Of a DNA stretch of 44,594 bases, positions 1 through 8,719 are shown one piece after another. The notes beneath the pieces are model-generated. The model did no database searches, was not told where the DNA came from, and worked only from the letters and a program-made list of their open reading frames with translations. Each line of letters starts with the position of its first letter. Position 1 is the first letter of the stretch. The DNA is taken from positions 1 through 44,594 of the forward strand of contig JANQQS010000203.1 in NCBI GenBank assembly GCA_028284955.1. Direction: 5' to 3'. Source of the DNA: Myxococcota bacterium (GTDB taxonomy: Bacteria > Myxococcota_A > Polyangia > Polyangiales > Houyiibacteriaceae). The translations under genes and the position numbers were made by a program.

Positions 1-75
1 CGTGCATCCTGGCGGGGGAGTTCGGGTGAATCGGCGGGGTCGTACCCCGACGAGAGGGTCTGGGTGCCAGACCCT
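1..75. repeat. Two-hairpin repeat element, copy 1
   Basis: First copy of a roughly 76-bp element that recurs at 128-204. It has a conserved leader (positions 1-33), a first inverted repeat at 31-40/44-53 (one mismatch, 3-nt loop) and a second perfect 9-bp inverted repeat at 55-63/67-75 with loop GTG. It probably begins upstream of the window. No gene is supported across it. It could be a dispersed REP-like element, a pair of terminators or a structured RNA; the sequence alone does not decide. Confidence 0.75.
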
Positions 76-127
76 AAAACAACAACGCGGCGGGGCCCCG
101 GCAGTTCAACCTCACGTAAGCAGGTCA

Positions 128-204
128 CGTGCATCCTGGCGGGGGAGCTTGGGTGAATCGCTCGGGATTGTATCCCGAGCGAGAGGGTCTGGGTGCCAGA
201 CCCT
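128..204. repeat. Two-hairpin repeat element, copy 2
   Basis: Second copy of the element at 1-75. The leader is nearly identical. The first stem here is 11 bp and perfect (158-168/172-182, loop TGT) but differs in sequence from copy 1 while still pairing, which is compensatory change. The second stem (184-192/196-204, loop GTG) is identical in both copies. On the minus strand this second hairpin begins 8 nt after the stop codon of the phosphorylase gene, so it may double as its transcription terminator, although no T-run follows. DNA between the copies (76-127) holds only a short GGGGCCCC-type palindrome. Confidence 0.75.
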
Positions 205-212
205 CAAATTAA

Positions 213-1970
213 CTAGCCGAGCCATGCGACTTGGTAGGGATCGAGCGCAACCTTTTCGGCGGGAGCCGATGCTCCCGACAACACATCGGTGCGTGTCCCG
301 CACTCGAGGCCGGCGTCGCCGAGGCCTGTTGCTAGGTTGAGCGTTACGGCCGATGCGCCCAAGTTGGCCGCGACGATGATTCGCTGCGTTTGGTCGGGGC
401 TTGTGCGGACGAAAACCAGGGCGGCGGGTTCGGTGACCGGAATCACGGTTTGGTCGCCGTCGGGATGAAACGCTTTCTGGGCGACACGTTTGGCAAGGAG
501 CGTTTTCATTCCTTCGAATACCTGCTGTTGTACGCCGGACCCGTGGAGTGCGCTTCGGAGCTCGTCTAGGTCGTATTTTTTTCGGTTGATGCGCCGGGGA
601 ATTCCCGATTGTTCCGCGCCTTCGCGATCGTTCGGCGAACCGACCAAGCTATGAAAATACACCGCGGGCATGCCCCGCAGGCTCAGCATGATGGCTTGTG
701 CGCAAAGGAATCGACGCACGTCGAGCGCGTCATCAGTCGCTTCGGGGTCTCGGAGCGCGTCGAAGTAGGTGATATTCAGTTCGTAGGGCGATTCGCTCCC
801 GTCAGGGCGACTGCGGTAGCTGACGTATCCGCCGCGCTTCGTGGTTTCTTCGGCGAGGCGCAGCACGCGGTCGTGAGGAATCAAGCCTTCGAGAGGACGC
901 ACGCCAATCCCGTCGTGGGACGCGGTGAAGTTGAAGTATGTCGCGCCGGCCGGAGGGGTCGTAAGCTCGGCGAGCCACCTTCGTAGCGCCGTCGCATCTT
1001 GGCTCAGCAGCGCCTCGAGCAAGAGCGGGGGCAAACTGAACTGATAGACCATATGCGCTTCGTCGCCGTCGCCGAAGTACGAGATGTTTTCTTCGTGCGG
1101 CACATTGGTCTCGGTGAGCAGAAGCACGTGAGGCGCGGCGACATCGACCACGTCGCGCATCAGTTTGATGATCTCGTGGGTTTCTCGAAGGTGCATCGAG
1201 CTCGTGCCGATCTTCTTCCAAAGAAACCCCACCGCATCGAGCCGGACGCAGCGCGCGCCTTTCTCAATATACTTCAGCAAGACATCGACCATGCGCACCA
1301 GCACGGCGGGCTCCGCAAAGTTTAGGTCGACCTGGTCGGCGCTGAATGTCGTCCATACGTGTCGCGGGCCTTGAGGCGACGAAAACTCGGTGAGCAAAGG
1401 CGAGTTTCGAGGTCGCGTCACTTGGGAGAGATCGGTCGCAGGGTCCATCTCAACGAAATGCCGCTTGAAGCGCTCGTCTCCCTGCAAAAAGCCTCGAAAC
1501 CATGCGCTTTCAGACGAGGCATGGTTCATCACGAAGTCGAATATGAGGTCTACGCCCTGGGCGAGGTTCGCGATATCGGCCCAGTCGCCGAGGCGTTCGT
1601 CGACTGCGAGATAGTCGACCACCGCGAACCCGTCGTCTGAGCTAAACGGAAAGAACGGCAGCAAGTGCACCATCTTCAACACCGGCTCGAGCTCTTCGGA
1701 TCGCAAAAAGTCACGCAGCGCGGCGAGCGGAGCCTTGCCCGAAGATTGCAGTTGATCACCGTAGGCGATGAGCACGATATCGGACTCGTCCCACCCTGCG
1801 GAGCCGTCGCCAGCCATGCGGCCGCGAGAAGGCGCCATGCGGCCGCGAGAGGGCACGGTCGCCGCGAATCGCTCTACGCGCGACCACAAGCGCTCCCAAC
1901 ACGCGTCTGCCTGCTCACCGTACAAAAGTCGCAATCGAGGCTCGACCCGGCGCCGTAGCTGTTCCTGCAT
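213..1970 (-). CDS. GH13 subfamily 18 phosphorylase (glucosylglycerate or sucrose phosphorylase type)
   Basis: Alpha-amylase-fold enzyme of 585 aa. GH13_18 members reversibly phosphorolyse sucrose, sucrose 6-phosphate or glucosylglycerate to glucose 1-phosphate in the cytoplasm. Visible catalytic positions in the 585-aa numbering are the nucleophile Asp245 (RLDAVGF), the acid/base Glu287 (LTETNVPH) and the stabilising Asp353 (ASHDGIG). The ETNVPHEENISYFG stretch followed by GDEAHMVYQF looks more like the glucosylglycerate phosphorylase branch (E. coli YcjM) than classical sucrose phosphorylase; this is recall, not alignment. The ATG at 1970 was chosen because everything upstream in frame is a low-complexity 15-bp repeat. 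A duplicated heptapeptide PSRGRMA lies at residues 40-53. It is divergent from the VWA lipoprotein gene. Substrate is uncertain; family membership is firm. Confidence 0.88.
   Translation of the reverse strand: MQEQLRRRVEPRLRLLYGEQADACWERLWSRVERFAATVPSRGRMAPSRGRMAGDGSAGWDESDIVLIAYGDQLQSSGKAPLAALRDFLRSEELEPVLKMVHLLPFFPFSSDDGFAVVDYLAVDERLGDWADIANLAQGVDLIFDFVMNHASSESAWFRGFLQGDERFKRHFVEMDPATDLSQVTRPRNSPLLTEFSSPQGPRHVWTTFSADQVDLNFAEPAVLVRMVDVLLKYIEKGARCVRLDAVGFLWKKIGTSSMHLRETHEIIKLMRDVVDVAAPHVLLLTETNVPHEENISYFGDGDEAHMVYQFSLPPLLLEALLSQDATALRRWLAELTTPPAGATYFNFTASHDGIGVRPLEGLIPHDRVLRLAEETTKRGGYVSYRSRPDGSESPYELNITYFDALRDPEATDDALDVRRFLCAQAIMLSLRGMPAVYFHSLVGSPNDREGAEQSGIPRRINRKKYDLDELRSALHGSGVQQQVFEGMKTLLAKRVAQKAFHPDGDQTVIPVTEPAALVFVRTSPDQTQRIIVAANLGASAVTLNLATGLGDAGLECGTRTDVLSGASAPAEKVALDPYQVAWLG
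1814..1855. repeat. 21-bp tandem duplication in the phosphorylase gene
   Basis: Two 21-bp units at 1814-1834 and 1835-1855 differ at two bases. They encode PSRGRMA twice near the N terminus of the GH13 enzyme, in a segment outside the catalytic motifs. The reading frame is kept. Confidence 0.8.
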
Positions 1971-8492: not shown

Positions 8493-8504
8493 CTGTATCT
8501 GTTC

Positions 8505-8552
8505 AGGGGGTCTTCCGAGACCCCCTCGATTGGTGAACTCGGTCCACCAATC
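8505..8552. other. Two adjacent hairpins between the PilZ and histidine kinase genes
   Basis: A perfect 9-bp stem with a 4-nt loop (8505-8513/8518-8526) is followed after one base by a perfect 8-bp stem (8528-8535/8545-8552). In transcription direction (minus) they lie between the PilZ stop and the kinase ATG, the nearer hairpin ending 12 nt before the start codon. They may end the PilZ transcript or control kinase translation. An 11-bp inverted repeat (8494-8504 and 8646-8656) encloses the same region. No T-run follows. Confidence 0.5.
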
Positions 8553-8719
8553 TTCACCCCTACCGTACGAATCGCTCCGCTCAAGCGGATCGAGCTGCCG
8601 CTACTTTGCACAAAACCGTTCCTAGTGAGGCTCCAGAGGGGTGGGTGAACAGATACGTTCATCTTCGCCTCCGCAGCGGATCGGCGTCCGGCTCGAACGT
8701 TCGAGGCGGGCCCAAGAAG

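Follow-up and report, generated by a model that had tools for sequence, protein, structure and literature searches.

The 44,594-nt stretch of Myxococcota DNA analysed here (the window) opens with two copies of a short double-hairpin element, which is best read as a new REP-like family that works like REPs and BIMEs but lacks the marks of the known REP classes. The element is probably a REP/BIME-like (REPIN-like), non-autonomous miniature mobile element, in which a fixed tag (GG[G/T]GAA-) is followed by two hairpins. A preliminary description had proposed a duplicated two-hairpin element with a common leader, an identical second hairpin and a first hairpin that differs in sequence and still pairs, which is confirmed. 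Selection on structure, which had been claimed as well, is borne out by covariation in two alignments (A1 and A3), and dispersal as a REP-type mobile element by at least 150 copies in the own genome and by empty sites in Polyangium. A lack of further copies and of covariation had been set beforehand as the refuting outcome; the opposite was found on both counts.

Anatomy of the element in the window and in its own genome

The window is the whole contig G000:C86 of a 6.07 Mb genome of 223 contigs. Positions 1-75 and 128-204 are two copies of the element, both with the order leader (...GGCGGGGGAGYTTGGGTGAATCG), variable hairpin 1 and hairpin 2. The following features were assigned:

1-30, plus strand: conserved leader of copy 1; 33-nt direct repeat with 128-160 (94% identity), 5' side cut by the contig start
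31-53, plus strand: hairpin 1 of copy 1 (TCGgCGGGGTCGTACCCCGaCGA, one G.A mismatch); fold, match to covariance model (CM) R1 of 89.0 bits, covariation
55-75, plus strand: hairpin 2 of copy 1; repeat comparison, pattern test, fold, CM match
76-127, plus strand: linker with the remnant of an upstream module (GCGGCGGGGCCCC...ACGTAAGCAGGTCA); comparison with own-genome copies
128-157, plus strand: conserved leader of copy 2; direct repeat with copy 1
158-182, plus strand: hairpin 1 of copy 2 (TCGCTCGGGAT-TGT-ATCCCGAGCGA, 11 perfect pairs); fold, CM R1 match of 89.4 bits
184-204, plus strand: hairpin 2 of copy 2; repeat comparison, pattern test, fold
205-216, plus strand: right end CAAATTAACTAG; sequence, right ends of other copies
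8499-8560, minus strand: diverged third copy (GGGGTGAA, hairpin GATTGGTG...CACCAATC, GA, hairpin GGGGGTCTCGGAAGACCCCC, TGAACAG); weak CM match, sequence, architecture scan

Hairpin 2 (AGGGTCTGGGTGCCAGACCCT) is identical in copies 1 and 2, and hairpin 1 differs between them in sequence and length, with pairing kept in both. Within the leader, GGCGGGGGAG and GGGTGAATCG are invariant across alignment A1. The 19-nt hairpin-2 pattern gave 0 chance matches in 100 shuffles, and a chance origin of the conserved parts of the window copies is excluded. RNA folding of copy 2 on the plus strand yielded -45.8 kcal/mol (z -4.6). A minus-strand gene of the alpha-amylase family (ORF 213-2153, Pfam PF00128) has its TAG stop codon at 213-215, where the plus strand reads CTA. 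Since the contig starts at position 1, copy 1 lacks part of its 5' side; contig ends of the own genome carry many other copies as well, so the repeat itself probably breaks the assembly. The assignment of the third copy rests on common anatomy, because its CM score is only 12.5 bits (E 0.12); its stems differ from those of the other copies, and its right end is TGAACAG.

In the own genome, CM R1, which was built from 31 copies and gives rough E-values, found at least 150 matches at E 1.2e-15 or better. A strict pattern detected 34 copies in a sample of 825 kb; scaled up to the 6.07 Mb genome, this makes about 250. Hairpin 1, closed by TCG...CGA, comes in 35 versions in a set of 101 distinct copies, and hairpin 2 has two main sequences in this genome (TCTGG/CCAGA and TTTGG/CCAAA). 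The core is frequently part of a full unit of about 220 bp and six hairpins, in which an inverted partner and two more hairpins are added to it; this unit is longer than the window copies. In eleven full copies, four further hairpins lie 5' of the core, the first two of which are a rough inverted copy of the core's own two; the upstream module whose remnant sits at 76-127 precedes most full copies. Full units start with CTGTGTTGTTCGGAGGG... and end with ...CCCTNNNNAACACAG or similar; the matching unit ends CTGTGTT.../...AACACAG are roughly inverted. Units are often joined directly, right after GGCGGGGGAG, and tandem and nested arrangements occur. Such joined full units are the mosaic organisation of BIMEs.

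Several loci show further repeat arrangements. Tandem arrays of the core with a period of about 63-68 bp are found at L008, L016, L185, L192 and L253. A second palindromic repeat family (TAGAGCGGCGGAATTTTGGYCTGAGCGCGAGCGCCCC...) adjoins some copies of the element (L005 at about 1375-1500; L009 past its second copy). At locus L087 of genome G014, two direct copies (1500-1564 and 2748-2812) lie 1.2 kb apart with common flanks, which is probably a segmental duplication.

Conserved structure and the folded strand

Alignment A3 spans several Myxococcota families and Acidobacteria: its 31 sequences come from families f1 and f2, from Polyangium, from one deltaproteobacterial MAG of groundwater origin and from two MAGs of Acidobacteria. 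Two-sided changes affect 14 of its 17 base pairs, and GGTGAA and GAGGG are nearly fixed. Cells with such changes number 107, compared with 30.4 in shuffles. The covariation score of A3, an alignment that was fitted to the structure of the model and hence leans towards it, is 0.539 versus 0.140 for shuffled sequences, and sliding the partners by 1-3 columns lowers it to at most 0.13. The MAFFT alignment A1, which is not structure-fitted, gave a covariation of 0.196 versus 0.064. The tag G-GTGAATCG and GAGAGGG..CCC are nearly fixed in A3, and hairpin 2 reads GGG-N13-CCC in nearly all sequences. The element is kept for its structure: the hairpin sequence is free, and the shape is conserved.

The mismatches in hairpin 1 are informative as to the strand. 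Among the 101 distinct own copies, 45 of 57 mismatch cells on the plus strand are G.A or A.G, and tandem G.A mismatches are found in copies of G007, G014 and G009, a related genus included. Read on the other strand, the G.A mismatches become C.T. Folded strands tolerate G.A pairs, and since the mismatches are mostly G.A or A.G on the plus strand, this is probably the strand that folds; common descent of the variants may explain part of the mismatch bias.

Distribution, insertion sites and neighbouring genes

Using model R2, the element was found in 19 of 377 sampled Myxococcota genomes and in 13 of 234 genera. When named genomes were scanned with a pattern, the matches listed included Polyangium species, deltaproteobacterial MAGs and two Acidobacteria records (L237 and L253); in these two records, the tag is kept and the stems are entirely different yet paired. 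Pattern matches in Kuenenia (L242, L247) and Shouchella (L225) were rejected as chance matches whose spacers do not form the hairpins.

Comparison of Polyangium species gave 14 split alignments, corresponding to about 10 independent filled and empty sites with flanks of 84-97% identity; 12 further comparisons aligned in one piece, some of which are shared copies. The cleanest filled/empty pairs are L134/L184, L138/L337, L124 versus L180 and L345, L193/L246, L180/L345 and L270/L338. At L134/L184, the filled site reads GGCGGTA[G..160 bp..]GGCGGGCG and the empty site GGCGGTAGGCGGGCG, and at L138/L337 the element has a TAG stop directly on one side and a facing CTA directly on the other. Most junctions show no target duplication or one of at most 1-2 bp; those of L132/L193, L252/L182, L254/L343 and L266/L335 are imprecise. 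The element is polymorphic for presence and absence between Polyangium species, gain versus loss not being proved at any single site. As judged by their sequences, these loci show past insertion at or beside stop codons in Polyangium, mostly without evident target duplication. We infer mobility in the genus of the window from Polyangium and from the copy number.

Gene context was derived from our own simple codon-usage gene caller. All copies of the own-genome sample are intergenic, with none inside a gene. On the hairpin-2 side, the neighbouring gene points towards the element in 27 of 31 own-genome cases (p 3e-5), or in 26 of 31 with a stricter cut-off (p 2e-4), and the element is antisense to the 3' end of this facing gene, the stop of which is often at most 25 bp away. 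In G102, a Polyangium genome, the facing bias is weak (12 to 8). TAG stops are found in 42 of 65 genes abutting the element in Polyangium (65%) versus 179 of 959 others (19%; p 9e-15), in two samples that may overlap somewhat; the corresponding enrichment in the own genome (10 of 17 versus 235 of 518) is not significant (p 0.33). The excess of TAG reflects either a preference of the element or a supply of TAG by its own end, and several empty Polyangium sites already hold TAG. Insertion at or beside stop codons spares genes. Hairpins that end in CTAG (CTAGAACATCG...CGATGTTCTAG) flank the element on one or both sides in Polyangium loci such as L266 and L233.

Mobilisation, alternatives and known repeat classes

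The likeliest way of spreading, which is put forward tentatively, is a single-strand mechanism of the HUH/Y1 type, with no Y1 gene tied to the element. The top strand would fold as single-stranded DNA, and an enzyme acting in trans would read the tag and the hairpins. This enzyme would cut and rejoin the strand beside a TAG-like target, and copies would land behind genes without breaking them.

As a sub-case, a RAYT or TIRYT (Y1 tyrosine transposase) might mobilise the element in trans and have been lost from some genomes. The anatomy, which resembles that of a single-stranded DNA substrate, the insertion beside TAG and the dispersal are as in REPs (PMC3733652, PMC8266576), and the own genome has Y1-like genes of about 300 aa. 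However, the element flanks none of the 41 Y1 loci that the models were run on (L031, L148-L157, L285-L314). PF01797 has matches in some, not all, genomes with the element, and its presence shows no association with it (11 of 20 genomes with versus 10 of 28 without the element, p 0.24). A broader Y1 profile, A4, made from four of the Y1-like own-genome proteins of about 300 aa, has many relatives, which occur equally in both groups (10 of 17 versus 13 of 22, p 1.0). The copy-rich Polyangium genomes G102 and G106 gave no Y1 match to PF01797 or A4 at the thresholds used, and G097 gave none to A4; G102 (13.2 Mb, 2 contigs) is an estimated 97% complete, so that a Y1 gene may have been missed there. 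In G007 and G014, the Y1 genes (L152, L153, L155) are flanked by their own, different inverted terminal repeats, GGGGACAG...CACCCC, and resemble published TIRtrons. In L033 and L035, two Y1-like own-genome proteins that were aligned, a tyrosine seems to be missing from the expected region. Mobilisation by a RAYT or TIRYT is possible, with the balance tilting against it, and the RAYT-type transposase suggested in the preliminary description is not supported: no examined Y1 gene is flanked by the element, and the presence of Y1 genes does not track it. The Y1-like proteins L031, L033 and L035 of the own genome belong to a family of about 300 aa with an HUH motif, which is multi-copy in many Myxococcota.

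It is improbable that the element is instead a structured RNA or a 3'-UTR control element (terminator, mRNA stabiliser or regulatory RNA), which is kept for a function of its own and was spread by duplication. Covarying hairpins, copies at gene 3' ends and strand-biased mismatches would fit such a role. However, no match to any curated Rfam family was found, no T-run follows hairpin 2, for which reason an intrinsic terminator was rejected as well, and the only terminator-like match nearby is at chance level. In addition, the conserved strand is antisense to most abutting own-genome genes, and near-identical copies in high number, nesting and site polymorphism between congeners suit mobility. 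A MITE of a classical DDE insertion sequence (e.g., of the IS630 type, with TA duplication at CTAG) rather than a REP is quite improbable: the own-genome ends are roughly inverted and some Polyangium sites read C-TA-[element]-TA-G (L233/L184), but the clean junctions mostly have no duplication or one of 1-2 bp, none of it fixed (L134/L184, L138/L337, L124/L345), the conserved parts are the internal tag and hairpins instead of terminal repeats, and a non-exhaustive search revealed no parent insertion sequence that has these ends.

The REP/BIME-like reading is of wider interest, as REPs count among the most abundant repeats of bacteria and their mode of spread is still under debate. The element offers natural filled and empty insertion sites in culturable Polyangium strains and a strict code of one tag plus two hairpins, and a near-complete genome with many copies and no detected Y1 transposase makes the usual RAYT explanation directly testable. 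No description of the element was found among the open-licence papers searched. It appears rather unlikely that the element represents a third large REP superfamily, tagged by GGGGTGAA, with two hairpins, which extends across Myxococcota and Acidobacteriota and is moved beside stop codons by a non-Y1 enzyme.

REPs sit within 20 bp of gene 3' ends, and GTAG REPs often provide the TAG stop (PMC3733652); TnpAREP depends on the GTAG tag and on folding of the single strand, and a mismatch bulge is necessary in the E. coli REP (PMC8266576). Like the GTAG REPs, BIMEs and REPINs that are associated with RAYTs (PMC3733652, PMC3116915, PMC8266576), the element consists of high-copy short palindromes with inverted pairs and tandem mosaics. 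It shares with GTAG REPs the position within about 20 bp of gene 3' ends, the link to TAG stops, an unpaired tag 5' of the hairpin and stem mismatches. Unlike in GTAG REPs, the core tag is GGGTGAATCG/GGGGTGAA or close to it in all lineages, with no GTAG at the hairpin foot, there are two hairpins per core, and no RAYT lies beside it; a partial likeness is seen in Polyangium, where [C/G]TAG often precedes the first of the four hairpins. CGTC REPs, which are also without a dedicated transposase (PMC3733652), are similar in this respect, but the alignments show neither their CGTC, TGTC or CCTC tag nor the accompanying 8-9 bp stem and CCA-like tail of the published description (PMC3733652), and the element has a double hairpin with a fixed tag of its own. 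The TIRYT-associated TIRtron repeats have the common motif GGGGWSAS, are in part double-palindromic and have been reported in Acidobacteria (PMC3733652). Their GGGG-rich motif is close to GGGGTGAA, and the element resembles them in its double palindromes and the overlap in Acidobacteria, whereas GGGGTGAA misfits GGGGWSAS at the last base, no tyrosine transposase was found beside the element, and the repeats at the Y1 genes of G007 and G014 are different ones. Because the tag and transposase tests fail, the element is filed as REP-like and not as a member of the GTAG, CGTC or TIRtron classes. What it has in common with REPs and BIMEs in general are palindromes that are extragenic, high in copy number and close to gene 3' ends, the occurrence of inverted pairs and of clusters with a mosaic structure, and, through the filled and empty sites of Polyangium, mobility.
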